Made by a program: the position numbers and the translations under genes
Assembly (NCBI GenBank): GCA_017998715.1
Contig: JAGOCP010000003.1
Span: forward strand, 1-45,263
Source of the DNA: Thermoanaerobaculia bacterium
GTDB taxonomy: Bacteria; Acidobacteriota; Thermoanaerobaculia; Multivoradales; JAGPDF01
Direction: 5' to 3'
Length of the DNA: 45,263 nt
Notes under the pieces: generated by a model
What the model was told of the DNA's origin: nothing
Seen by the model: the letters and a program-made list of their open reading frames with translations, nothing else
Database searches by the model: none
Shown here: piece by piece, positions 1,017 through 35,672 of the stretch
Numbering within the stretch: position 1 is the stretch's first letter
How the letters are laid out: each line of letters opens with the position of its first letter

Positions 1017-1646
1017 GTGCAAGGGCGACCGCAGGCGCAGGACACCGAGGCATCGCGATTCAGATCCGCCGGCGGGGGAGCGCTCCCGGCCGGCTCCGAG
1101 CCGGCACCGGCCGACCCGGTCCAGCAGCTCGCGGAGCTCTTCCGCGAGCACTACGACAAGGTCTTCCGAGCCGCGTACCGGATTACCGGCAACGCCATGG
1201 ACGCGGAAGACGTGCTGCAGTCGGTCTTCCTGCGCCTTGCCCGACGGCAGGAGGCCGAGCCTCTGGGGGAGGAGGCCGCGGGCTACTTCTACCGTTCGGC
1301 GGTCAACGCGGCGCTCGACGTCGTGCGTTCCCGCCAGCGTGCCGGCTGGGCCCCGCTCGAAGAGGCCGAGCTGCCGCGTGCGAGCGCCAATGCCCTCGCC
1401 AGCGCCGAGTTCGAGCCCGAGCGGGAGCGCCGCCTGAAGCAGCTGCGGAAGACGCTGCGGCTGGCGATCGCCCGGCTCTCACCGCGCGCCGCCGAGGTCT
1501 TCACCCTGCGCTATTTCGAGGGCCTCGGCAATCAGGAGATCGCCAGGCTCCTGGGCAGCAGCCAGGGCGTCGTCGCCGTTCTGCTCCACCGCACCCGCTA
1601 CCGTCTGCGCAAAGAGATCACCAGCCTCATGGGAGAAGCGTCATGA
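1017..1646 (+). CDS. ECF-type RNA polymerase sigma factor
   Basis: A 209-residue sigma-70 family protein that would direct RNA polymerase to a small envelope- or stress-related regulon. Region 2 runs from about residue 38 (LAELFREHYDKVFRAAYRITG) and has the acidic DAED motif at 62-65, followed by VLQSVFLRLARR. Region 4 lies at the C-terminus (LSPRAAEVFTLRYFEGLGNQEIARLLG, given here as a description of its helix-turn-helix). I chose GTG 1017 because GGAAGGAG at 1001-1008 sits 8 bases upstream; an in-frame TTG at 993 lacks a site. The first 35 residues are low complexity. The stop overlaps the next start as ATGA (1643-1646), so it is translationally coupled to a probable anti-sigma protein. Confidence 0.9.
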   Translation: MQGRPQAQDTEASRFRSAGGGALPAGSEPAPADPVQQLAELFREHYDKVFRAAYRITGNAMDAEDVLQSVFLRLARRQEAEPLGEEAAGYFYRSAVNAALDVVRSRQRAGWAPLEEAELPRASANALASAEFEPERERRLKQLRKTLRLAIARLSPRAAEVFTLRYFEGLGNQEIARLLGSSQGVVAVLLHRTRYRLRKEITSLMGEAS

Positions 1647-4450
1647 AGTCCGAAGAGCGATTCGAGCAGGCCGTTGCCGCCGTCCGTGACGAGCAGATCG
1701 ATCCGCGCACCGTCGAGACGGCGGGCGAGCGCGTCTGGGCGCGCCTCGCGAACGAGGCCGACGCCGTGGTTGCCGGTCAGACCGCGCCCTCTGCCAACGC
1801 CGCGAGCGCTGGCGCCGAGCACCGCATCCTCGGCTGTGAGGGCTTCCGCGAGCTGATGCCGGCCTATCTCGCCGGCGCCCTCGCCGAGCCCAAGAAGGTT
1901 CTCCTCGAAGACCATACCCGCGAGTGCCTTCCCTGCCGCCGGGCTCTCGCGGCGGCGCGTCAGGCGAAGGCCGCGGTCGCTGCTGCGCCGGCCCGCGAGT
2001 CGTCGCGCCCGCGGAGCGCCCGGGGTGAATCCTCCGGTGTCCGGCGCTGGGCGCTCGCTGCCAGTCTCGCCGGAGTGGCGTTGCTCTCGGGCTTCCTCGT
2101 CCGCCAGGCGGGCGTCGGGTATCTCGGCGCCGCTCCCGCCGTGACGGTGCGGGCGATCTCTGGCGAGCTCTCGGTCGTCTCCGGTGGCGAGGTGCGGCCG
2201 GCGGTGGCCGGCGAGCGCATCGCCGGTGCGCAGCTGGTGCGTACCGCGCAGAGATCGGGCGCCGTGCTCGAGCTCGCCGACGGCTCGCGTATCGAGCTCG
2301 CCGAGCGCTCGGAGCTGGGCCTCGGCCGGCGCTGGGACGGCACGATTCTCGAGCTCGAGCGCGGCAGCCTGATCGTCGAGGCCGCCAAGCAGCGGCGCGG
2401 CCATCTCTACGTCGATACCGGCGACTGCCGGGTGTCGGTCGTCGGCACGATCTTCTCCGTCAACCACGGCGCCAAGGGCTCGCGCGTCTCGGTGATCGAG
2501 GGCGAAGTGCACGTGCAGGAAGGCGCGGAGCGCGCCGTTCTCCTCCCCGGGCAGCAGTTCGCCAGCGGCCATCGACTGGCCGCGGTGGCGGTGGCCGACG
2601 AGATCTCCTGGAGCCGCGATGCGGCGCGCTATCGCGAGCGCCTCGCCGCGCTGAAGAGCCTCGGCCACGAGCTCGACCTCGCCCTGACGCCGGCTTCGGC
2701 GCGCACTTCGACGCGCCTGCTCGATCTGGTTCCGGCCGGCACTGGCATCTACGTCGCGCTGCCCAACCTCTCGCAGTCCGTCGGCACGGCATGGCAGCTG
2801 GTGCAGCAGCGGGTGAGCGAGAATCCGGTGCTCGGCGAGTGGTGGAACGAGCACTTCGCGAACCCCGAGGACGAAGCCGCGATCGCCGAGGCGATCGCCG
2901 AGCTCGAGCGCTTCGGCAGCGAGCTCGGGGCGGAGATCGCGATCGCGGTCGATCTCGCGCAGACCGGTGGCGCGGACGCGGCGGGCGGCGAAGCTCCCCT
3001 GTTGCTCGCCGAAGTCGACGATCCGGCGCGATTCTCGCCGCTTCTCGATCAGGAGATCGCCCGTCTCAACGCGCTGCCGGTGCCGCATCCGGCTGGCGAG
3101 GCGGGATCTCAGCCGCGCCTGCGGCGCATCACCGATCCGGCGAGCGAGAGCGCGACCGAGCATGAGCTGCTCGTCTGGCTGACCGGCGATCTGCTGCTCG
3201 CTTCGCCTTCGGCGGCGCCGCTCGCGGCGATCCAGGCCGAGCTCGCGACGGGTGCCAACGCCTTCGTCGGCTCACCGTTCCACCAGCGCCTCGCCGCGAT
3301 CTACGGCGGCGGTGCGGAGTGGTTGGTCGGTGTCGACCTGGCGTCGATCGTCGCCCGGGCGACGGCGCAGCCGGAGGCGACCGAGCCGGAGCAGGCCGCC
3401 CAGGGCCGCGTGCTCGAGCGCCTCGGCCTCGCCGATGCGGAGTTCCTGATCCTCGACAGCCGCAGCTCCTCGGGCGAAACCCAGAGCCGCGCCCACCTCG
3501 GCTTCCGTCACGAGCGCCGGGGGCTGGCCTCCTGGCTCGCCGAGCCTGCTCCCGTCGGCGCGCTCGACTTCGTTTCGCCCTCCGCGCACCTCGCGGTAGG
3601 CGGCATTCTCAAGGAGCCGGCGGCGATGCTCGACGATCTCCTCGCCCTGGCCGAGGCGGATGGCTCCGGCGAGCATTCGGTGCTGCGCGAGCTCGCCGAC
3701 TTCGAAGCCGAGCACGGGCTGTCGCTGCGCGAGGATCTCGCCGCAACGCTGGGTGGCGACTTCGCCTTCGCCTTTGACGGTCCGTGGCTGCCGACGCCGT
3801 CGTGGAAGCTCGTGCTCGAGGTCGCCGACGCCGGCCGCCTGCAATCGACGCTGGTGAACCTGGTGGAGGAGTGGAATCGCACCGCCGCGAGCGGCGACGG
3901 AGAGCCGCGGCCCACTTTGGCTCTCGCCCAGGAGGCCGTCGACGGACGGGTCTACTACGATCTGCGGACCTCGACCGGCACCGAGCTCGCCCACTTCCTC
4001 TTCGTCGATGGCTACCTCGTCGTCGGACCTTCGCGGGCCCTGCTCGCCGAGTCCGTCGGCCAACGTGCCGCCGGCATCACGCTCACCGCTTCGTCGGGCT
4101 TCCTCGAGCTGCTGCCGCTCGATGGCGAGGCCAACTACTCGGCCGTGGTCTACCAGAACCTCGGCGGCGCGGTGGGCGCCCTGGGCGAGTTCCTCGGTCG
4201 CCAGGAGGGCATTCCCGCCGCCGAGCGAGAGCAACTGACGGCGCTCGCCGGCGAGGCCGGCGCGAGCCTGGCGGTGGCCTACGGCGAAGCGCAGGGGCTC
4301 ACCTTCTCGACCCGCGGCGTACGCGGGCCGATGGGGGTCTCGTTCGAGAGCCTGCTCGCCCTCGGCGGCCTCTTCGGCGGCGGCGACGCGGCGCCGGAGA
4401 GCGCCCCCGCCGGTGCGGTGAGCGAAACTCCTGCCGGCCCACAGGCGTAG
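1643..4450 (+). CDS. Zinc-finger/FecR-domain membrane protein, probable anti-sigma, with large unknown C-terminal region
   Basis: A 935-residue protein coupled to the sigma gene. Residues 60-105 contain a zinc-finger motif HTRECLPC (His91, Cys95, Cys98), the pattern of zinc-binding anti-sigma domains. One transmembrane helix lies at about 136-153. Residues 165-320 resemble a FecR domain ([11 protein letters not shown], then RGSLIVEAA and [10 protein letters not shown], ending in a LLPGQQ turn). The remaining 600 residues are Ala/Glu/Leu-rich and start [19 protein letters not shown]; they look like a periplasmic domain vaguely similar to DUF3352-type proteins, but I do not recognise them securely. 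Inferred role: it binds the sigma factor in the cytoplasm and releases it when the periplasmic part senses a signal. It precedes the ABC genes by 14 bases. Confidence 0.75.
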
Positions 4451-8194: not shown

Positions 8195-8812
8195 ATGCGC
8201 GAAGACGAGTTCTCGTCCGAAGGCCCCTCGCCGGCGGCGGCGGACCCGGCCGTCACGCAGGTTCTCGAAGCGTGGAAGGCGGGCGACGACGGCGCCCTGG
8301 AGCGCCTGCTGCCGATGGTGTACGACGAGCTGCGCGCGATCGCCGGCCACCAGCTGCGCCAGGAGCGTCGCGGCCACACCCTGCAGCCCACCGCCCTGGT
8401 CAACGAGGCCTATCTCAAGTTGCGGCGACTGCGCGCCATTCGCTGGCACGATCGAGCGCATTTCTTCGCCTTTGCTTCCCGGATCATGCGTCGCATCCTG
8501 GTCGATCATGCCCGAGGCCGTCTGGCGGCGAAGCGCGGAGCCGGAGCGGTACCGGTCGACTGGATTCAGCAGATCGAGGACCGACCCGGAGGCGCCACGA
8601 GTCCCTGGACGCTGATTGATCTCGATCGCGCGCTCGACCGACTGGCGGCGCAGCGCCCGCGCCTCTCGCAGTTGGTCGAGGTGCGGTTCTTCGGCGGCCT
8701 GACCGTCGAGGAGGCCGCCGAGGTGCTCGAGTGCTCCCCGCGTACCGTCAAGCGGGACTGGGCCTTCGCTCGCGCCTGGCTGCTGCGCGAACTGGGCCGC
8801 CCTCTTGAATGA
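8195..8812 (+). CDS. ECF-like sigma factor (Sigma70_ECF/TIGR02999 type), kinase-linked
   Basis: A 205-residue sigma factor. Hallmarks are MVYDELRAIAGHQLRQE, TLQPTALVNEAYLKL and DRAHFFAFASRIMRRILVDH, all typical of the TIGR02999/PF07638 group, plus a C-terminal region 4 (LTVEEAAEVLECSPRTVKRDW). In region 2.2 the acidic DAED found in ordinary ECF factors (and in the one at 1017) is replaced by QPTA, putting Thr66 where a glutamate is expected. Related kinase-linked sigma factors (EcfP of Vibrio, group ECF43) need threonine phosphorylation there to bind RNA polymerase. The gene overlaps the following Ser/Thr kinase gene by 8 bases and no anti-sigma gene is adjacent. Phosphorylation control is an inference. 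Confidence 0.88.
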   Translation: MREDEFSSEGPSPAAADPAVTQVLEAWKAGDDGALERLLPMVYDELRAIAGHQLRQERRGHTLQPTALVNEAYLKLRRLRAIRWHDRAHFFAFASRIMRRILVDHARGRLAAKRGAGAVPVDWIQQIEDRPGGATSPWTLIDLDRALDRLAAQRPRLSQLVEVRFFGGLTVEEAAEVLECSPRTVKRDWAFARAWLLRELGRPLE

Positions 8813-11800
8813 CCCGAGCCCGGATCTCGACCGGTTAGAGGAGCACTTCCATCGCCTCGCCGCGCTCGCTCCCGGCGAGCGCGAGTCGGCGTTGCGGGCG
8901 CTCGAGCTGGGCGAAAACGCCGCATTCGCGGCGGCGATGCGGGATCTTCTCGCGGCGGCGGACACGCCGTCCTCGCCGCTCGATCGACCGGCGATCTCGG
9001 GAGGCGAGCTGACGTTGGCGGACGATCTGCGCGGAGTCTTCTTCGAGGTGGAAGCGCCGCGGGAAGTCGCGCCGCCGGCCGGAGAAGCGGAGGGCGCTGC
9101 ACAGGATCGGCTTCCGCGGGTTCCCGGCTTCGCGATCCAGCGGCGGATCGGCCGCGGCGGCAGCGCTACGGTCTACCTCGCCGAGCAGCTGCGGCCCGAG
9201 TTCAGCCGGCTGGTGGCCCTCAAGATCGTCGACCGCGTCATCGACGCGACCTCGCTGCGAAGGGTCGAAGACGAGCGGCGAATCCTCGCCCGGCTCGAGC
9301 ATCCCGGCATCGCGCGTCTCTACGATGCCGGCGTGACACCCGCCGGGCAGCCCTACCTCGCGATGGAGCGCGTGGACGGGCTGTCGATCTTCGACCACTG
9401 CTCGGTGCGAAACCTCTCCGTGAAAGAGCGGGTAGAGCTCTTCCTCGGTGTTCTCGAGGCCGTCGAGTTCGCCCACCGGGCGGGGGTCGTGCACCGGGAT
9501 CTCAAGCCCGGCAACATCCTCGTCACCGAGAGCGGAGCCGTGAAGTTGCTCGACTTCGGTATCGCCAAGCTCGTCGCGGGCCCCGGCGAGGAGGCGGAGA
9601 CCCTCACCCAGGGGCGGGCGATGACGCTGGCCTACGCCAGCCCCGAGCAGATCCTCGGTCAGCGCGTTTCGGTCGCCTCCGACGTCTACTCCCTCGGAGT
9701 CGTACTCTACGAGCTGCTCGCCGAGACTCTGCCTTACAGGATCGACGGGGTGCGCTTCGAAACCTACGAGGACGCCGTCCGGGCGCAGGATCCCGAGCCC
9801 CCATCGGCCGCAATCACCCGCACGGCGGAGACTTCGACCGGGGAGCGCCCGAGCCAGGAGCTCGCACGGCGCCGCCGCGCGCTGAAGGGCGACCTCGACG
9901 CGGTGGTGCTGCAGGCACTGCGCAAGGAACCGGCGGCCCGCTACGGCTCGGCCGACGACTTCGCCCGCGATCTCCGCCAGGTGCTCGGAGGACGCCCGGT
10001 CGCGGCCCGCGGCGCGAACCGGCGCTACCGCGCCGCCCGCCTTGTACGCCGCAATTGGAAGCGAATCGCGGTCGGCGCGGCGCTGGTGGCGGCCGCCGGC
10101 CTGGGTGCACTGCCCGAGCTGCGCCAGCGACTTCTGCTGCCTCTGCTCACCCCTGCCGTTGCAGACGAGCTCTCGAGCCACAGCGCGGTACGCGCCGGCA
10201 GCCCAGAGGCGAGAGCCGCCATGAAAGCCGGAGCGGAGGCGCTTCGTCGGTTCGATGCCGGGGCGGCCCGGGCGCAGTTCGTGCTCGCCACGAAGCTCTT
10301 CACCGGAGCGGCCGAGCAAGCGCTCGCCTGGGACGGCCTCTCTCGCGCCGAGACGCTCTGCGGAGAGATGGGCCCGGCCGGCGAGGCGGCGACGCGGGCG
10401 GCGGCGATTCCTGTCCCGGAAGGTGGGCTGCCGGCGGACGAAGCGGCACGAATCGCCGCCCGCGCCCTCTCTGCCGGGCGGGATTGGCCGCGCGCGATCG
10501 CGGCGCTCGACCGGCTCTTCGGGCGCGCCGCTTCGAGGACCGACATCGGCCTCGACCTGGTCGCCGCCCTCCTCGCTTCCGGCCAGACCGAGGCCGCGAA
10601 CGCCACGTTAGGAAGACTCGCCCAGCTTCCGGCGCTCGCAGAAGGGGCGAATCGCGACCCGCGCTTCGATCTCGCGGAATCGGCGGTGGCATACCGCCTG
10701 GGCGACCATCAGCGAGCGGCCGCCGCGGCCACGCGGGCGATCGACTGGGCGAACCGGCACGCGCGGCCGACGATCCGTCTGCGAGCGGAGCGCCTGCATG
10801 CCGAGGCGGTCGGACGGCTCGATCTGCAGGCGGAGGCGCACGGGGACTTAACGGCTATCGCCGCGGAAATGGTGCGCGAAGGCATGCACAACGAAGCCGC
10901 GCTGACGCATCTCGCCCTCGCCAGACTCTTTTCGCGCACGGGAGAGAACGCTCGTGCGCAAGCCGGTTTCGAGCAGGCCCTGCTCGCGCTTCGCGCTGCC
11001 GGCGATGCCGCCGGCGAAGCGCGCGCCCTCGTCGGTCTCGCCTTCGAGGCCTCCAAGGGGGGAGATCTCCAGCACGGTCTCGGCATCATCCGGGAGGCCG
11101 TGGAATTGGCGCGCGCGATCGGCGACCGGTGGTGCGAAGGCGAGGCTTTGGTCATCGAGCTCGTCCTCGCCAACTGGTCCGACGATGCCGAGGCGGTGCG
11201 GGAGCTGACCGCGCCGACTCTCGCTGCGCTTCGCGAGTCGGCCAATCGCCAGACCCTTTTCGCGACGCTCAACAATCTCGCGATTGCCGAGATCGAACGT
11301 CTGGAGCTCGACGCCGCAGAGAGCTATCTCGGCGAGGCCGCCCTTCTCGCCCACCGGGTCGGCAACCGACTGGCGGACGCCGGTATGGATCGCGCTTACG
11401 CCTTTCTCGAGGAGTCGCGCGGCAACCTCGATCTCGCTCGCCAGCGCTACGAGTCGGCTCTCCAGAAAGCGCGGCGGGCGGAGATTCCGGTTTCCATCGC
11501 CACCTATCTGGCCGACCTCGCAGGGCTCGAGGTCGCAGCCGATCGCCCCGAAGCCGCCGCGGTGCGCGCCGCGGAGGCGATCGCGGCACATCGCGCCGTG
11601 GGTCGGCTGCGTGACGCAGCCGAGCTCGAGGGGATCCTGGCTTGGGTCGAGGCGCGGCGCGGAAACGCCGCCGCGGCGCGCGCGGGTCTGGCCGCGGCGC
11701 GTCTGGCCGCTGGTGAGCCGCCTGCGGATCCGACACTCGCGTCGCTGATCCTCGAGGCCCGAATCGAGGAGGCGCTGGGGGAGTGGCCCCGCGCCGTGGC

Positions 11801-12011
11801 GCTGCGGCGGCGCACGTTGCAGATGGCCGAAGCGCAGGCCACCGCCGGACCCTGGATCGCGGAGCGCTACGCCCTGATCGTCGCCCTTCGTCGGGCTGGG
11901 CGAGGGGACGAGGCGCGCGGTCTCGCGACCGACCTCCTCGTCGAGTCCGAAAGGCGGGGCGCCCGGGGTGTGGCACGTGGCCTCCGCGAGCTCCTCGCCT
12001 CTCCGAGCTGA
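8805..12011 (+). CDS. Ser/Thr protein kinase with TPR ectodomain
   Basis: A 1068-residue membrane kinase. After a 100-residue N-terminal region with no recognised domain comes an intact kinase domain: glycine loop IGRGGSATV (115-123), VALK lysine 140, HRDLKPGN (His230, Asp232, Asn237), DFG (250-252) and SPEQ at 279. A single transmembrane helix lies at about 420-436. The remaining 600 residues are helical repeats of TPR type (for example ARAQAGFEQALLALRAAG), predicted outside the cytoplasm. The start is TTG 8805, overlapping the sigma gene by 8 bases; no nearer alternative has a ribosome binding site. The natural partner is the upstream sigma factor; the ligand is unknown. Confidence 0.9.
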   Translation: MNDPSPDLDRLEEHFHRLAALAPGERESALRALELGENAAFAAAMRDLLAAADTPSSPLDRPAISGGELTLADDLRGVFFEVEAPREVAPPAGEAEGAAQDRLPRVPGFAIQRRIGRGGSATVYLAEQLRPEFSRLVALKIVDRVIDATSLRRVEDERRILARLEHPGIARLYDAGVTPAGQPYLAMERVDGLSIFDHCSVRNLSVKERVELFLGVLEAVEFAHRAGVVHRDLKPGNILVTESGAVKLLDFGIAKLVAGPGEEAETLTQGRAMTLAYASPEQILGQRVSVASDVYSLGVVLYELLAETLPYRIDGVRFETYEDAVRAQDPEPPSAAITRTAETSTGERPSQELARRRRALKGDLDAVVLQALRKEPAARYGSADDFARDLRQVLGGRPVAARGANRRYRAARLVRRNWKRIAVGAALVAAAGLGALPELRQRLLLPLLTPAVADELSSHSAVRAGSPEARAAMKAGAEALRRFDAGAARAQFVLATKLFTGAAEQALAWDGLSRAETLCGEMGPAGEAATRAAAIPVPEGGLPADEAARIAARALSAGRDWPRAIAALDRLFGRAASRTDIGLDLVAALLASGQTEAANATLGRLAQLPALAEGANRDPRFDLAESAVAYRLGDHQRAAAAATRAIDWANRHARPTIRLRAERLHAEAVGRLDLQAEAHGDLTAIAAEMVREGMHNEAALTHLALARLFSRTGENARAQAGFEQALLALRAAGDAAGEARALVGLAFEASKGGDLQHGLGIIREAVELARAIGDRWCEGEALVIELVLANWSDDAEAVRELTAPTLAALRESANRQTLFATLNNLAIAEIERLELDAAESYLGEAALLAHRVGNRLADAGMDRAYAFLEESRGNLDLARQRYESALQKARRAEIPVSIATYLADLAGLEVAADRPEAAAVRAAEAIAAHRAVGRLRDAAELEGILAWVEARRGNAAAARAGLAAARLAAGEPPADPTLASLILEARIEEALGEWPRAVALRRRTLQMAEAQATAGPWIAERYALIVALRRAGRGDEARGLATDLLVESERRGARGVARGLRELLASPS

Positions 12012-24187: not shown

Positions 24188-24904
24188 ATGTTCGAAACTG
24201 CACTGATCGAATCGCAGAAGCGCAAGGCGCCAAAGAACCGGGCGCTGATCATCCAGATGGCGTTGTTGATGCACGTGGTCCTGATCGGCACGGTGCTCGC
24301 CGTGCAGTACTGGACGATCGACCCGGTGGACGAGCCGCCGATCCAGGTCACGTTCTTCCAGGCCTCGGCGCCGCCGCCGCCGCCGCCGCCGCCCCCGCCG
24401 CCGGCCGCTCCCAAGCCGGTAGCACCGAAGCCGGTGGTCGTGCAGCAGGTGCAGGCCGAGATCGTTCAGCCCGTGAGCGTGCCAGAGGACATTCCCGAGC
24501 CCTCCACCGAGGTCGCTTCCGAAGGCGAAGGCACCGAAGGCGGCGTCGAGGGTGGTGTCGAGGGTGGCGTCGCGGGCGGCCAGGTCGGTGGCGTGGTGGA
24601 GAGCGTGGGCGAGGAAATCCTGCGCGTCGGCGGCGAGATCAGCAAGCCGGTGCGTCTCGGTGGAGCCCAGCCGGCCTACACGGAGCTCGCGCGCAAAGCG
24701 CGTATTCAGGGCGTGGTGATCGTCGAGGCGATTATCGACAAAGAGGGCAAGGTGACCAACGTCCGTGTCCTGAAGGGCCTGCCGATGGGTCTCGACCAGT
24801 CGGCGGTGGACGCGGTCAAGAGCTGGCGCTTCAAGCCGGCGACGTTGAATGGGCGGCCTGTGAGCGTCTACTACTCGCTGACGGTCAACTTCCGACTGCA
24901 ATAA
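24188..24904 (+). CDS. tonB: Energy transducer TonB
   Basis: A 238-residue TonB protein linking the inner-membrane motor to outer-membrane receptors. A membrane anchor lies at about residues 22-40 (LIIQMALLMHVVLIGTVLAVQYW). A run of eleven prolines (62-72) is followed by Ala/Pro/Lys and an acidic Glu/Gly/Val region with short tandem repeats, spanning the periplasm. The C-terminal TonB domain starts near 160 (AYTELARKARIQGVVIVEAIIDKEGKV) and ends DAVKSWRFKPATLNGRPVSVYYSLTVNFRLQ. The ribosome binding site is GGGAG just upstream. Its neighbours exbB and two exbD genes complete the motor. Confidence 0.93.
   Translation: MFETALIESQKRKAPKNRALIIQMALLMHVVLIGTVLAVQYWTIDPVDEPPIQVTFFQASAPPPPPPPPPPPAAPKPVAPKPVVVQQVQAEIVQPVSVPEDIPEPSTEVASEGEGTEGGVEGGVEGGVAGGQVGGVVESVGEEILRVGGEISKPVRLGGAQPAYTELARKARIQGVVIVEAIIDKEGKVTNVRVLKGLPMGLDQSAVDAVKSWRFKPATLNGRPVSVYYSLTVNFRLQ
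24371..24403 (+). repeat. Proline-codon (CCG) tandem run in tonB
   Basis: Eleven proline codons in a row, ten of them CCG and one CCC, encoding the rigid spacer of TonB. Slippage would alter length by whole residues and keep the frame. Confidence 0.85.
24542..24577 (+). repeat. 12-bp tandem repeats in tonB
   Basis: Three units of GGCGTCGAGGGT type (24542, 24554, 24566, the last diverged) encoding GVEG-like residues in the acidic spacer. Likely length variation in a disordered linker. Confidence 0.6.
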
Positions 24905-24936
24905 AACCGAACTGAAACAGGAAGAGGAGAGGAGCT

Positions 24937-25632
24937 ATGGAATTTAGCCCGATGCATCTGTGGGAGCAAATGACGTGGATCGCCAAGGGCGTGGTGATCA
25001 TGCTCATTTTTCTCTCCGTCTACTCGCTGTACGTGACGCTCGAGCGCTATCTGTTCTTCAAGAAGGCCAAGAGCCAGTCGCTCGACTTCGCCAAGCAGGC
25101 CACCGCGGCCTTGGCCAAGGATCAGATTCAGCAGGCGGTCGACGTGGCGAAGAAGTACCCCGCCAGCCACCTGGCGCGCGTCACGCGGGCAGGTCTGATC
25201 GAATTCCAGCTCGACACGGTCCGTTCTTCGGGTCTCTCGGGCAGTGACCTGGTCGAGGCAGCCCGCCGCGCGATCGAGCGCGAGACGCTGATCACCTACT
25301 CGGACTTCAAGAAGGGCGTCGGCGCCCTGGCGACGATCGCCACGACTGCGCCGTTCATCGGTCTCTTCGGCACCGTCGTCGGCATCATCAACGCTTTCCG
25401 CGGCATGTCCACCGGCGCTGGCGGCATCGCAGCGGTCTCCGGCGGTATCGCCGAAGCCCTGGTGACGACGGCGCTCGGCCTCTTCGTCGCCATTCCGGCG
25501 GCCTGGATGTTCAACTACTTCACGAACGTCCTGGAGCGCTTCAGCGTCGAGATGTCGAACTCCTCGTCCGAGCTCGTCGACTTCTTCATCAAGAAGCACG
25601 GAGGCAGCGATGCAGTTGGGGTCCGCGTTTAA
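24937..25632 (+). CDS. exbB: MotA/TolQ/ExbB proton channel protein
   Basis: A 231-residue inner-membrane subunit of the proton-driven motor. Three membrane helices are visible: GVVIMLIFLSVYSLYVTLERY near the N-terminus, and the pair GALATIATTAPFIGLFGTVVGI and GIAEALVTTALGLFVAIPAA, the family signature with the TTAPFIGLFGTV and TALGLFVAIP pore segments. GAGGAGAGGAG just before the ATG is a strong ribosome binding site. It overlaps the following exbD by 23 bases, so the two are translationally coupled. Confidence 0.95.
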   Translation: MEFSPMHLWEQMTWIAKGVVIMLIFLSVYSLYVTLERYLFFKKAKSQSLDFAKQATAALAKDQIQQAVDVAKKYPASHLARVTRAGLIEFQLDTVRSSGLSGSDLVEAARRAIERETLITYSDFKKGVGALATIATTAPFIGLFGTVVGIINAFRGMSTGAGGIAAVSGGIAEALVTTALGLFVAIPAAWMFNYFTNVLERFSVEMSNSSSELVDFFIKKHGGSDAVGVRV

Positions 25633-26050
25633 CATCCCGGGTTCGAGCGAGAACGACGTCAAGGCGGATATCAACGTCACGCCGCTCGTCGATGTCTGTC
25701 TGGTGATGTTGATCATCTTCATGGTGGTCACGCCACTGCTGCGCGCCGGCGCCGACGTCAACCTGCCGCAGACGAACATGCCCCCGAAGATGCCGGAGGG
25801 GGCGAAGCAGAAGACGATCTCGATGACCTCGCGCGCCGAAGTCGTGATCGACGGGGTGTGGATCCCCGACCAGAATCTGGCCACCTACTTCAAGGACCTG
25901 CATCAGCAGTCGCCCGAGAAGACGCTGGTCATCAAGGCAGACAAGGCGCTGAAGTACAAGGAAGTCCGCCGCATCATGCAGACCGTCAACGAAGCCGGGT
26001 TCGACGGCGTCGGGCTGGTGACGGACAAGCGCGAAACGGCAGCCAAGTAG
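25610..26050 (+). CDS. exbD: ExbD/TolR biopolymer transport protein (first)
   Basis: A 146-residue protein with one membrane helix, [21 protein letters not shown]; the aspartate in PLVD is the conserved proton-handling residue. The periplasmic domain ends in RIMQTVNEAGFDGVGLVTDKRE. It begins with GGAGG at 25600-25604 inside exbB and overlaps that gene by 23 bases. With the next gene it forms a pair of ExbD proteins, the common arrangement in Acidobacteriota and Bacteroidota-like motors. Confidence 0.94.
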   Translation: MQLGSAFNIPGSSENDVKADINVTPLVDVCLVMLIIFMVVTPLLRAGADVNLPQTNMPPKMPEGAKQKTISMTSRAEVVIDGVWIPDQNLATYFKDLHQQSPEKTLVIKADKALKYKEVRRIMQTVNEAGFDGVGLVTDKRETAAK

Positions 26051-26078
26051 TCAACAGGGCGCACCGGAGGACAGGTCG

Positions 26079-26498
26079 ATGAGTATGAACGTAGGTGGCG
26101 GTGGAGGCATCAAGAGCGAGATCAACGTCACGCCCCTGGTGGACGTCGTGCTCGTGCTGCTCATCATCTTCATGGTGATCCAGCCCATGCTGCAGGTGGG
26201 CTACGAGGTGGAGACCCCGCCGGAGGTCAAGTCGTCCCAGCCGCCGCCTCCGAGCAGCGAGCAAATCATCATCCGGATGGACGCCGAGGGTAAGACCTTC
26301 ATCAACAAGGAGGAGGTCCCGCGGATCCGGTTCGCCGAGCGCCTGAAGACTGCGATGACTGGTCGCGAGAAGAAACTGGCTTTCTTCGCCGCCGACGGCG
26401 AGCTCTCCTACGAGAAGGTGGTCGATTTCATGGACCTCTGCAGGAACAACGGCGCCCAGAATCTCGGAATCGTCTTCGACGACCTTCGCGCCGAGTAG
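26079..26498 (+). CDS. exbD: ExbD/TolR biopolymer transport protein (second)
   Basis: A 139-residue ExbD with a glycine-rich N-terminus ([20 protein letters not shown]), one membrane helix containing the conserved aspartate, and a short periplasmic domain ending [18 protein letters not shown] about 8 bases upstream of ATG 26079. It differs clearly in sequence from the first ExbD, so the motor probably uses a heterodimer. It is the last gene of the operon; a strong intrinsic terminator follows. Confidence 0.94.
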
Positions 26499-31203: not shown

Positions 31204-31830
31204 ATGAAGCGCATCATCGGATGGACGACGGTCTTGGCATTGCTGTTGTTGGTCGCGCCGGTTCAGGTGCAGGCGGCGGACAACACGAAGCCCCGCATCG
31301 CGGTGCTCGAGTTCAAGAACAAGGCGGACGGTCAGTGGTGGTACAACGGCGGCGCCGCGGCGATGCAGGACGTGTTCGTCACGGAGCTCGTCAAGAGCGG
31401 CAAGTTCCGGGTCATCGACCGTGAGCAGCTCGCGGCGCTCATGCAGGAGAAGAATCTGTCGCTCGCCGGCGACGTCGATCCCAAGACTGCGGTCAAGGCC
31501 GGGAAGCTCCTCGGCGTGCAGTACTTCTTGACCGGCGCGGTGACCGAGTACGGCGCGCAGGGCACTTCGGCGCACGCCCCCAGCGTCGGTGGTCTACCGG
31601 GCTTCTCCGGCGGCAAGAAGACCTTCACCGCCGCCGCCAACGCGCGGATCATCGACACCACCACCGGCGAGATCCTCTGGGCCGACGAAGCGCGCGGCGA
31701 GGACTCCAAGTTCAAGCTCAGCATCGGCGGCTTCGGAGGCGGCGTCGACTACGACGATCGCCAGTTCGACAAGGTCATGAAGCCGGTCGTGCAGCAGCTC
31801 GTGGCGAGCATCAAGGCCGCCGACCTGTAA
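31204..31830 (+). CDS. CsgG/HfaB-like secreted protein
   Basis: A 208-residue protein with a signal peptide ending QVQAAD. The mature part matches the CsgG/HfaB plan: RIAVLEFKNKADGQWWYNGGAAAMQDVFVTELVKSGKFRVIDREQL, then AVKAGKLLGVQYFLTGAVTEYG, and ANARIIDTTTGEILWADEARGE. CsgG forms a curli-secretion pore when lipidated; here no lipobox cysteine follows the signal peptide, so it is probably periplasmic or soluble at the outer membrane. It has its own promoter and a bidirectional terminator, so it stands alone. Likely an envelope protein of unknown exact role. Confidence 0.82.
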   Translation: MKRIIGWTTVLALLLLVAPVQVQAADNTKPRIAVLEFKNKADGQWWYNGGAAAMQDVFVTELVKSGKFRVIDREQLAALMQEKNLSLAGDVDPKTAVKAGKLLGVQYFLTGAVTEYGAQGTSAHAPSVGGLPGFSGGKKTFTAAANARIIDTTTGEILWADEARGEDSKFKLSIGGFGGGVDYDDRQFDKVMKPVVQQLVASIKAADL

Positions 31831-31850: not shown

Positions 31851-31886
31851 ACAGAAAGAGGCGCCTTCACGGGCGCCTCTTTCTGT
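31851..31886. terminator. Bidirectional intrinsic terminator
   Basis: A perfect 15-bp stem, 31851-31865 with 31872-31886, loop TTCACG. The stem itself is A-rich on one arm and T-rich on the other (AAAGAGG / CCTCTTT), so it serves the CsgG-like gene from the left and the convergent kinase-like gene from the right. Confidence 0.85.
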
Positions 31887-31954: not shown

Positions 31955-33886
31955 TCAGTTGTTGCCGGTGAGATTGAAGGCGACCTTGAGGTCCATCCAC
32001 ATCCGCACCGCGACGCCGTTCTTGGTTGCCGGTGTGAAGGCGCAGCCGCGGGCGTAGTCGAGCGCCGCTTCGTCCATGCCGAAGCCCGCCGAGCTGCCGG
32101 TCGCCTGCACGTCGGCGGCCCGCCCCGTTTCGTCCACCAGTACCCGCACCGTGACGGTCGCCTCCTTCTTCATCCGCTGGGCGAGCGGCGGGTAGCGCAG
32201 GCTCGCCCGGCGAACGACCTTCGGCGGAGCGACGCCGGCCCCCATCGTCACCAGATCGCCCTGCCGGACCGTTCCGTCCGTGGCGGGCCGCGCGGGAGCC
32301 TCGGCCCGGGTCTCGGCCGGGACTGCTGGCTTGGCCTCGGGAGCCGGCGGGGTGGAAGCGGGCGCCGTGGCTGCCGCAGTCTCGGCCGGCGCCGTCGTCG
32401 GCGGAGGCGCCGCGGCCGTCGCTGGCGCCGAAGGCGGGGGGACCGAAGCCGGCGTGACCGGCCGCGGAGCAGGAACGGCCGCTGCGGCGCGCTGCTCCTG
32501 GGCCTTCTTGGCGTCGTCGAGCTGCTTCTGCAGCGTCTTCAACTGATCCTCGTACTGAGCCGAAGAGCTCTTGATCTTGTCGTCGACGATCTTCTGAATC
32601 TGCGCCTGGATCTCCTCCGGCGTCGGTCCGCTCGGCGCCGGGGCGGTATCGGCCGGTGCCGCGGTGAGCGGGGCGTCAGTGGCGGGGGAGGAAGGCGCGG
32701 AGCCGCGGCCGAACATCATGTAACCGATTCCGCCCAGGACGACGAGCGCGCCGACTCCGGCGGCGATCATCATCGTGTTGTTCTTCGCCGGCTTGCTCTC
32801 ACCGCCCTGGCGTTCACGCCCGGAGAGGGTCTCATCGCGAGCGGCGCTCTCGCGCGCCGGGGCGCCGCCGCTCTGCCCGAACGAAGGCGCCTGCGCCTTG
32901 GGGGCTGGCGCCGCGGCAGCGGCCGCGGCGGCGACGATCGGAATCGCCGTGGTCTTCTCGACCTCCAGCTCCTGCGTTTCGCGCTCGATCTCCTCGCGGA
33001 AGAGATTGTGCATGAAGAAGGCGAGGTTGAACGTGGTCGGGTTGTACTGCCCCTCGAACATCATCTTGGCCAGGGTCTTGTGCCAAGTGACGGCATCACC
33101 GATCCGCTGCTCGCGCGGCACGAGGCTGCGCTTGAGGAGATTGGCCAGCTCGGGGTGGAGATTGCCGCCGTCGGCGGCGATGACCGCCTGGTCGACGAGC
33201 GCCGCCTGGCCGCCGGCCGTGGAGACCGGCAGGGCGCGCCCGGTCAGCAGCTCGAAGAGAATGGCGCCGAGCGAGTAGACGTCGTCCGACTTCGCCGGCG
33301 GAGCGCCCGCCAGCACTTCGGGTGCGAGGTAGCGGCCGGCGGACTGCTTGATCAGAGGGTGGTTCGCGGCCTCGCGCAGGCCGCTGGAGGCTTCGAAGCC
33401 GAGCAGGCGCAGCTCGCCTTCGTTCGACACGATGACGAGCTGGGGGGTGAGGAATCCGTGCTGGACGCGCTCGTCGCCGATGCGCGTCTCGTAGGCCACG
33501 GCGAGACCGAGCGCGATGCGCTCGGTCATCAGCAGCGCATGGTCGAGCGGGATCGGCGAGTGCTTCTTCGCCGCCTGCTCGAGCAGCTGAGCCAGCGTCT
33601 TGCCCGAGATGTAGTCATAGGCGACGTAGGGCACACCGCGCACCTGGCCGAGATCGAGGCCGAGGGCGAGGTTCGGACTCTTCAGCGCCTGCTGCAGCGG
33701 GGCGCGCGACTGGATGCGCTGGGCGAGGCGCTCGCCGTCGAGGCCCTGGCCGTTGAAAATGCGCAGAAGAATGACCCTCTCGACTCCCTGCTTGCCGAGT
33801 TTGCCGGCGCGAAACGTCTCGCCCAGAGCATCCTCCGAGAGCTTCTTGAGGAGAAGGTAGTTGCCGAACTGGTCGCGTGTGTTCAT
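31955..33886 (-). CDS. Pseudokinase-transmembrane-TonB C-terminal domain fusion protein
   Basis: A 643-residue protein with an unusual plan. Residues 8-280 follow the Ser/Thr kinase fold (LLLKKLSEDALGETFRAGKLG; AYDYISGKTLAQLLEQAA; RYLAPEVLAG; DDVYSLGAILFELLTGRALP), yet the glycine loop is degenerate, the VAIK lysine position reads VILLR, HRDLKPxN is HGFLTPQL (no catalytic Asp) and DFG is GFE. A membrane helix lies at about 371-393, then a coiled coil (425-470), a Pro/Ala-rich spacer, and a TonB C-terminal domain (about 560-643; SLRYPPLAQRMKKEATVTVRVLVDETG). ATG 33886 has a GGGGGCGGA leader; a 24-bp palindrome and a promoter lie upstream. Likely a cytoplasmic pseudokinase sensor connected to the periplasm; no active phosphotransfer expected. 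Confidence 0.8.
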   Translation of the reverse strand: MNTRDQFGNYLLLKKLSEDALGETFRAGKLGKQGVERVILLRIFNGQGLDGERLAQRIQSRAPLQQALKSPNLALGLDLGQVRGVPYVAYDYISGKTLAQLLEQAAKKHSPIPLDHALLMTERIALGLAVAYETRIGDERVQHGFLTPQLVIVSNEGELRLLGFEASSGLREAANHPLIKQSAGRYLAPEVLAGAPPAKSDDVYSLGAILFELLTGRALPVSTAGGQAALVDQAVIAADGGNLHPELANLLKRSLVPREQRIGDAVTWHKTLAKMMFEGQYNPTTFNLAFFMHNLFREEIERETQELEVEKTTAIPIVAAAAAAAAPAPKAQAPSFGQSGGAPARESAARDETLSGRERQGGESKPAKNNTMMIAAGVGALVVLGGIGYMMFGRGSAPSSPATDAPLTAAPADTAPAPSGPTPEEIQAQIQKIVDDKIKSSSAQYEDQLKTLQKQLDDAKKAQEQRAAAAVPAPRPVTPASVPPPSAPATAAAPPPTTAPAETAAATAPASTPPAPEAKPAVPAETRAEAPARPATDGTVRQGDLVTMGAGVAPPKVVRRASLRYPPLAQRMKKEATVTVRVLVDETGRAADVQATGSSAGFGMDEAALDYARGCAFTPATKNGVAVRMWMDLKVAFNLTGNN

Positions 33887-34048: not shown

Positions 34049-35143
34049 TCAGCGCCCGGCCGCGCGGGCACGCCACGGCCGCTTCTGCCAGCGTTCGACG
34101 TTGCGGTTGTGCTCCGCCAGGGAGTCGGCGAAGACATGGCTGCCGTCGTTGCGGCTGACGAAGTAGATATAGGAGACGTCGGCCGGTCGCGCCGCGGCCT
34201 GGAGGCTGGCGAGGCCGGGGGAGCAGATCGGGCCGGGTGGCAGACCGGCAACGCGATAGGTGTTCCACGGCGACTCCATGCGCAGGTCGCTCTTCGTCAG
34301 ATTGCCGTTCCAGCGGCCGAGGAGCTTCAAGGCGTGAATGATCGTCGGATCGGCATAGAGGCCGATGGCGAGACGCAGCCGGTTGGCGTATACCGCGGCG
34401 ATGAGCGGCCTTTCGGCATCGAGCTTCGCCTCCTTCTCGACCAGGCTGGCGAGGATCACCAACTCGCGCAGCGGTCGCGAATCCCCCGCCGCGCGCAGCG
34501 GGCGGACGCGGGAGTCGAACTGGCGGCGAAACGTGGCGACGAGGGTGTCGGCGATCTCGCGCTCGGACGTCCCCGGCGCGAAGCGATAGGTGTCGGGAAA
34601 GAGATAGCCCTCGAGATGCGCGGCCGCCGCGTCGAGATCGGCGATGCGCCCCGGGTTGGCGAACTCGGCGCGCAGCCGGGCGGCGTCGCCGAGACCGGCT
34701 GCGGCCAGAGCCGCGGCGCTCTCGTCGACGTCGAGCCCCTCGACGAGCGTGACGGCGATCGTACGGATCTCGCCGCGCTCGAGCTTGCCAAGGATCTCGA
34801 TCGTCGACATTCCGGCGGGAAGCTCATACTCGCCCGCCTTGAGGTGCGGGGCTCCGCGAGCCCAGCGCAGCCAGGCGCGAGCGAGCAGCGCCGGGCCGAT
34901 CCGCCCTTCGCCCTCGAGCCGGCGGAGGATGCCGCCAGCGCTTTCTCCCGGCGAGACGACGAAGAGAGCGCTGCCGCCGCCGCGCGGGCCGCTCTGCGGG
35001 CGGTGCAGCTCCCGCCACCCCCAACCGGCGACGGCGCCCGCGGCGAGGAGACCGAGGAGAAAGAGGCAGCCGAACAGGCGCAAGAGCCGCGCGAAGCAGC
35101 CGCGCTTCGCCGGTGCGGCCCCGGCTGTCGCGGGCGCCGTCAT
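34049..35143 (-). CDS. mltG: Endolytic murein transglycosylase
   Basis: A 364-residue inner-membrane enzyme that cuts nascent glycan strands and sets their length. A membrane helix lies at about 19-41, a LysM-like segment follows (about 55-110: GGILRRLEGEGRIG), and the YceG catalytic domain holds Glu226 in ILASLVEKEAKLDAERPLIAAVYANRL, with LFPDTYRF and SPWNTYRVAGLPPGPICSPG motifs. ATG 35143 overlaps the upstream ruvX stop (ATGA), the common pairing of these genes. The usual QSDPTV motif reads YADPTI. No terminator T-run is visible before the next minus-strand gene. Confidence 0.93.
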   Translation of the reverse strand: MTAPATAGAAPAKRGCFARLLRLFGCLFLLGLLAAGAVAGWGWRELHRPQSGPRGGGSALFVVSPGESAGGILRRLEGEGRIGPALLARAWLRWARGAPHLKAGEYELPAGMSTIEILGKLERGEIRTIAVTLVEGLDVDESAAALAAAGLGDAARLRAEFANPGRIADLDAAAAHLEGYLFPDTYRFAPGTSEREIADTLVATFRRQFDSRVRPLRAAGDSRPLRELVILASLVEKEAKLDAERPLIAAVYANRLRLAIGLYADPTIIHALKLLGRWNGNLTKSDLRMESPWNTYRVAGLPPGPICSPGLASLQAAARPADVSYIYFVSRNDGSHVFADSLAEHNRNVERWQKRPWRARAAGR

Positions 35144-35562
35144 GCCGGTCGGGTCCGCCGGCGGTCGAGCGCCTCCTGCAGGAGCAGCTGGGCGGCGAGC
35201 GCATCCCGGCGCTCGCGGCGTTTCTCCGGCGCGACGCCGGCCTCGCGCAGGCGATGGTCGGCCTCGCGACTGGTCAGGGTCTCGTCGATGGTCTCGACGG
35301 GCAGGCCGCAGAGGGCGCCCAGCCGGGCGGCGAAGCGCCGCGCCCGGACGGCCGGCGGACCGGCCGAGCCATCGCTGCGCAGGGGCTCGCCGACGACGAT
35401 CCAGGCGACCTGCTCGCGGTGGGCGATCGCGGCGATAGCGGCCAGGGCGCTCGCATCGTCGGTGCGCGCGAGGGTTTCGCTGGGCAGCGCGTAGGTGCCC
35501 TCCGGATCGGAAATAGCCACCCCGATTCTGCGTTCGCCGAAGTCGATTCCGAGGGCTCTCAT
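35140..35562 (-). CDS. ruvX: RuvX/YqgF family putative pre-16S rRNA nuclease
   Basis: A 140-residue RNase H-fold protein of the YqgF/RuvX family, involved in 16S rRNA 5' maturation. The first metal aspartate is in RALGIDFGERRIGVAISDPEGT, followed by VVGEPLRSDGSAGP, VETIDETLTSREAD with the second acidic residue, and DALAAQLLLQ with the last. ATG 35562 is chosen because the domain starts with MRALGIDFG; upstream in-frame Met codons give unstructured extensions. It diverges from the thiolase gene and is coupled to mltG. Confidence 0.92.
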   Translation of the reverse strand: MRALGIDFGERRIGVAISDPEGTYALPSETLARTDDASALAAIAAIAHREQVAWIVVGEPLRSDGSAGPPAVRARRFAARLGALCGLPVETIDETLTSREADHRLREAGVAPEKRRERRDALAAQLLLQEALDRRRTRPA

Positions 35563-35672
35563 GGGGCGGGAGGGTGGCAGCGCCTGTGTTAGCATTCGCG
35601 CGCTGTCCGGCGTCCCGGCGGTGATCTTGTAGGACGCCCCAGGCAATCCGCAAGTCCCGGAGGACATGGAAG

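Follow-up and report, generated by a model that had tools for sequence, protein, structure and literature searches.

A predicted pseudokinase joined by a single transmembrane helix to a TonB C-terminal domain and encoded beside mltG in a Thermoanaerobaculia bacterium

Gram-positive bacteria use PASTA kinases. To our knowledge, how Gram-negative cells report the state of their outer membrane or wall directly to cytoplasmic kinases and c-di-GMP signalling is largely open. Pseudokinase-kinase pairs are known in eukaryotes. SidJ is a kinase-fold protein with a different chemistry. Among described bacterial proteins, GltG of Myxococcus consists of an FHA domain, a transmembrane (TM) region and a TonB C-terminal domain (TonB_C) (PMC3169522). 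The general plan of a cytoplasmic domain fused to TonB_C is therefore already known, and a preliminary description of the locus analyzed here, which named no system of this kind, is to be amended on this point. Within the bacterial pseudokinases, the GLW family is defined by GLW in place of HRD and LLLL/W in place of the beta3 Lys; the review that defines it takes up SidJ and makes no mention of TonB (PMC12599244). FhaA binds the MviN pseudokinase in its phosphorylated form (PMC11898655), and the PASTA kinase IreK phosphorylates MltG in Enterococcus (PMC12369325). The TM His of TonB is required for ExbBD coupling, as TonB(H20A) is inactive (PMC11658791). We found nothing relevant on kinase-TonB or GGDEF-TonB fusions in the open-access PMC literature, and domain databases may list such architectures without comment. 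Here we describe a pseudokinase-TonB_C protein encoded in a 45,263-nt stretch of DNA (the window, meaning the whole stretch analyzed) from a Thermoanaerobaculia bacterium, the host genome being a metagenome-assembled genome (MAG) of 481 contigs that is 84% complete.

Domain layout and loss of the active site

The minus-strand reading frame is real and encodes a 643-aa product between an ATG at 33886 and the stop at 31955 (Table 1). A GTG 24 nt upstream of the ATG is a possible alternative start, but GGGGGCGG lies just 5' of the ATG. Pfam matches over cut-off were found for Pkinase (5.5e-10) and TonB_C (7.8e-16). An AlphaFold2 (AF2) model, built on a 12-row alignment, has a pLDDT of approximately 90 for the kinase fold (residues 8-280); it places TonB_C at residues 550-640, with a pLDDT of 92-97 for the domain (residues 563-639). 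Residues 4-300 superpose on MEK1, CDK2, PknA and PknB with VIA Z values of 24-26 (Foldseek and VIA-align), and the last 103 residues, folded alone, have TonB C-terminal domains as their top Foldseek matches. The bilobal fold of bacterial Hanks-type kinases is thus recovered by Pfam, AF2 and VIA. Structure prediction of both domains, which the preliminary description had proposed, returned a confident kinase fold in residues 8-280 and a confident TonB_C, and Pfam, AF2, Foldseek and VIA together bear out the fusion that it had read from the sequence.

Table 1. Features of the pseudokinase-TonB_C locus and of related proteins (positions in the window unless another locus is named)
Feature	Position	Strand	Basis or remark
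Whole gene, pseudokinase-TM-coiled coil-TonB_C, 643 aa	31955..33886	-	ORF, Pfam, four full-length orthologues
Pseudokinase domain (predicted), residues 8-280	33047..33865	-	Pfam, AF2, VIA; catalytic residues lost in 5/5
Helical extension, residues 281-314, YNPTTFNLAFFMHNLFREEIERETQELEVEKTT	32945..33046	-	dN/dS vs L009, orthologue alignment, motif scan
Single TM helix, residues 372-392, no His	32711..32773	-	Kyte-Doolittle maximum 1.99
Periplasmic coiled-coil helices, residues 423-469	32480..32620	-	AF2 secondary structure
Pro/Ala-rich spacer, residues 470-540	32267..32479	-	Sequence; low pLDDT
TonB_C domain, residues 563-639	31970..32200	-	Pfam 7.8e-16, AF2, Foldseek
Inverted repeat AGAAAGAGGCGCC..GGGCGCCTCTTTCT, likely bidirectional terminator	31853..31885	.	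Between convergent genes; by eye
CsgG/LpoB-like secreted protein, convergent	31204..31830	+	Pfam CsgG 5e-28, LpoB 1e-10
mltG (YceG), directly upstream	34049..35143	-	Window ORF; conserved neighbour
ruvX (YqgF-like), overlaps mltG start	35140..35667	-	ORF; name by sequence resemblance only
Active Ser/Thr kinase, N-terminal receiver-like domain, C-terminal TonB_C	L002:262-3423, G000:C430	+	
GGDEF-TM-coiled coil-TonB_C proteins	L057:2250-3650; L075:1501-2757	both -	Intact GGDEF

The AF2 model adds a helix pair (285-313) after the kinase fold and a coiled-coil helix (443-469), while the TM region is disordered in it. At about residues 372-392, the TM segment is the best hydrophobic peak of the protein and has the same position in the orthologues; Kyte-Doolittle analysis found no second hydrophobic segment comparable to it in the protein. 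Since approximately 370 residues precede the TM segment, the cytoplasmic part is sizeable. The layout fits a topology with a cytoplasmic kinase fold, one TM helix and a periplasmic TonB_C, which is compatible with a transenvelope protein. The order of helix, coiled coil, Pro/Ala spacer and TonB_C first noted by eye agrees with Kyte-Doolittle analysis, AF2 and the sequence.

We read the active site against six active kinases of the host genome and an active kinase-TonB paralogue described below. The glycine loop is S17-E18-D19-A20-L21-G22 (SEDALG), the VAIK Lys is replaced by R42 and the alphaC Glu by R61, HRD has become H143-G144-F145, the catalytic-loop Asn is L150 and DFG is G163-F164-E165; the APE Glu (E190) and the alphaF Asp (D202) are retained. 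Arg in place of the VAIK Lys, Gly-Phe-Glu in place of DFG and EDA in the glycine loop recur in all five sequences, in which the HRD Asp is Phe, Cys or Met (HG[FCM]). The three residues that mark an active Ser/Thr kinase (VAIK Lys, HRD Asp and DFG Asp) are thus replaced in five of five. The list of losses in the preliminary description is right but for a minor correction: His of the HRD motif and the final Gly of the glycine loop survive. Judged from its sequence, the domain is a pseudokinase by fold and by conserved loss of the catalytic motifs.

Conservation, gene neighbourhood and a family sharing the TonB_C end

The preliminary description had also proposed a search of other genomes; a genome scan returned four full-length orthologues (52-67% identity) in separate MAGs labelled Acidobacteria or Thermoanaerobaculia, with mltG as the neighbour in five of five; the distribution data comprise these five related MAGs. 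Since the orthologues are full-length and come from separate MAGs, the domain combination is not a product of chance. In a plasmid search, no record spanned 80% of the query, and the best among the matches listed span the kinase part only. Compared with the orthologue at L009, dN/dS is approximately 0.24 for the kinase domain, 0.08 for the helical extension (dN 0.05, dS 0.68), which is the most conserved stretch, 1 for the disordered linker and 0.45 for TonB_C, indicating that the dead kinase and the helical extension are the most constrained parts. The pseudokinase is maintained rather than decaying, with purifying selection strongest on the pseudokinase and the helical extension.

In all five genomes the pseudokinase gene lies downstream of mltG on the same strand, with a gap of 101-162 nt, and the neighbour has a YceG Pfam match at L009, L010, L011 and L012. 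The convergent CsgG/LpoB-like gene is present in the window and at L009, L011 and L012, with a malic-enzyme gene beyond it; no lipobox is visible in the protein encoded in the window. In the window, the far side of the locus holds a thiolase gene and lptD. At the locus, a terminator scan gave nothing above chance, the inverted repeat of Table 1 included, and a promoter scan gave no match. The conserved mltG neighbourhood may reflect mere slow rearrangement among related genomes. Given that MltG is an IreK substrate, the link between mltG and a kinase-like protein is suggestive at most. Elsewhere, the window encodes a further Ser/Thr kinase, whose motifs are those of an active enzyme and whose C-terminal part consists of TPR repeats (8805-12011, +), and a 935-aa protein with a zf-HC2 anti-sigma-type zinc finger and a FecR domain (1643-4450, +).

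The host genome encodes a second protein of the same layout, in which a receiver-like domain and an active kinase with intact VAIK, HRD and DFG are followed by one TM segment, a coiled coil and TonB_C. Its receiver-like domain is below the Pfam cut-off and, by eye, has Asn at the expected phosphoacceptor Asp. The gene, which adjoins accD, was recovered from each of the five genomes, either intact or fragmented (complete in G001, truncated by a contig end in G002, fragmentary in G003 and G004). In G001 a ruvC-exbB-exbD-exbD-tonB cluster runs divergently from it, and in G002 and G003, too, it has exb genes in its vicinity. A third type, in which an intact GGDEF domain takes the cytoplasmic position, is complete in G001 and G002. 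G003 and G004 yielded TonB_C fragments, and a search of the host genome (84% complete) gave no copy. This type may provide a c-di-GMP output for the shared periplasmic module. In a TonB_C tree of the five genomes, the pseudokinase, active kinase and GGDEF types group together (100/99) to the exclusion of canonical TonB, and the YT..ARKARIQG and W motifs of canonical TonB are absent from this group. Sequence comparison thus indicates common ancestry of the three TonB_C types. A post-kinase LF..E helix is found in both the pseudokinase and the active kinase proteins, while the kinase-domain tree gave no resolution of whether the two are sisters. Our data indicate that the pseudokinase protein is one member of a small family, so far undescribed, whose varied signalling domains share the same periplasmic end.

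Proposed role and competing explanations

The window carries a tonB-exbB-exbD-exbD operon (24188-26498, +) with one ExbB and two ExbD genes. The TonB encoded there has a His in its TM segment, while residues 369-400 of the pseudokinase protein contain none and the active kinase and GGDEF members also lack a TM His. A TM segment without His favours a passive transenvelope link over energised engagement of the outer membrane; the relation between the missing His in this family and ExbBD coupling is correlative.

We hypothesize, at somewhat less than even confidence, that the protein is a non-catalytic, non-energised transenvelope scaffold, an inner-membrane pseudokinase whose role is probably in cell-wall homeostasis. 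The pseudokinase and the helical extension would serve as a docking site for cytoplasmic partners. These may include FHA proteins, which would bind after phosphorylation of T312 by a cellular kinase such as the active kinase-TonB paralogue. The coiled coil and the Pro/Ala spacer would cross the periplasm, and TonB_C, unpowered by ExbBD, would hold a partner that sits in the outer membrane or is bound to peptidoglycan. In this way the condition of the outer envelope would be coupled to cell-wall synthesis, most likely via the operon neighbour MltG. T312 ends the helical extension in a T-x-x-I-x-I context with acidic residues at -2 and -4 and hydrophobic residues at +3 and +5. In a motif scan it was the only site of its type in the cytoplasmic part, and its context is kept in four of five sequences; the motif is weak, and the orthologue at L012 has Ala at +5. 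Since T312 is conserved and the host genome contains 13 FHA domains and approximately 50 kinase-like matches, phospho-dependent docking via T312 is plausible by analogy with MviN and FhaA.

A different reading, which we regard as unlikely yet deserving of attention, is that the pseudokinase and the receiver-like-kinase proteins assemble into a heteromer by way of their coiled coils and TonB_C domains, with the dead domain acting as a switch for the live one, as in the eukaryotic pairs. The occurrence of both proteins in five of five genomes, their shared layout, their related TonB_C domains and the LF..E helix common to both are consistent with such an allosteric partnership, but the two are not grouped in the kinase-domain tree, and their genes are found on separate contigs with different neighbours. 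We consider it improbable that the protein is an energised TonB-like transducer, regulated by its pseudokinase, whose TM segment couples to ExbB/ExbD and whose TonB_C drives outer-membrane receptors, as for GltG with AglRQS. The TonB_C fold is genuine, the window has its own tonB-exb operon and the active paralogue lies near exb genes in G001, G002 and G003; against this, the TM His is absent from all three types, their TonB_C domains branch in a clade of their own without the conserved TonB Trp, and the pseudokinase gene is linked to mltG, not to exb.

The chance that the altered site still binds nucleotide and catalyzes another reaction, such as AMPylation, appears slight. SidJ sets a precedent and the R42, G163 and E165 substitutions are themselves invariant among the orthologues, but substitutions have removed the Lys, both catalytic Asp, the Asn and the glycine loop, and the place where the ATP phosphates would bind carries two acidic residues. 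A fragmented, incomplete MAG as the source might suggest a decaying gene or an assembly artefact, which is barely conceivable given four full-length orthologues with the same gene order under purifying selection; pseudogene decay was rejected on the selection and the full-length orthologues. As for the transenvelope signalling protein of the preliminary description, the folds, the active-site loss in every orthologue and the topology agree with it; a TonB-like energised engagement of the outer membrane is less likely than a passive one.

Beyond the passive scaffold that we prefer, we tentatively suggest that these proteins are a new class of transenvelope receptor, in which a TonB_C uncoupled from ExbBD would be the sensing or anchoring end of a modular output (pseudokinase, kinase with pseudo-receiver or diguanylate cyclase). 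If so, they would give Gram-negative bacteria a direct route from the outer membrane to cytoplasmic phospho- and c-di-GMP signalling, and TonB_C as a signalling module would be separated from TonB as a motor output. With its interchangeable outputs, among them a conserved dead kinase encoded next to mltG, the TonB_C family offers a concrete, testable candidate for the Gram-negative equivalent of the PASTA kinases.

Comparison with known systems

In plan, the described proteins closest to the one reported here are GltG, the PASTA kinases and MviN. The PASTA kinases (PknB, StkP and IreK) likewise have a kinase fold, one TM segment and an extracytoplasmic end that contacts the envelope, but they are active enzymes with PASTA repeats, whereas here a dead kinase is joined to TonB_C; the PASTA kinase model NF033483 scores 67 against a cut-off of 450, and the protein has neither PASTA repeats nor the residues of an active kinase. 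The mycobacterial MviN pseudokinase is also a membrane-tethered bacterial pseudokinase and acts in cell-wall control (PMC11898655); unlike our protein, MviN is a multi-pass lipid II flippase that lacks TonB_C. EssB/YukC and the GLW family resemble it as transmembrane bacterial pseudokinases that have lost all catalytic motifs (PMC12599244). We rejected membership in the GLW family since HG[FCM] stands at HRD and Arg at the Lys position, the GLW and LLLL/W motifs being absent. The C-terminal fold, the Pro-rich spacer and the single TM segment are those of TonB energy transducers, yet TonB generally lacks a cytoplasmic domain (PMC8262864) and requires its TM His (PMC11658791). GltG differs in carrying an FHA domain and no kinase fold, and GltG and GltJ work in the AglRQS-driven gliding machine; the pseudokinase protein has neither an FHA domain nor a match to the AgmX/PglI tail model NF033768, which its active-kinase relatives match only below its cut-off. 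With GltG (PglI) and GltJ (AgmX) of Myxococcus xanthus it nevertheless shares a cytoplasmic signalling domain, one TM segment, a periplasmic helix and a TonB_C (PMC3169522, PMC5349195).
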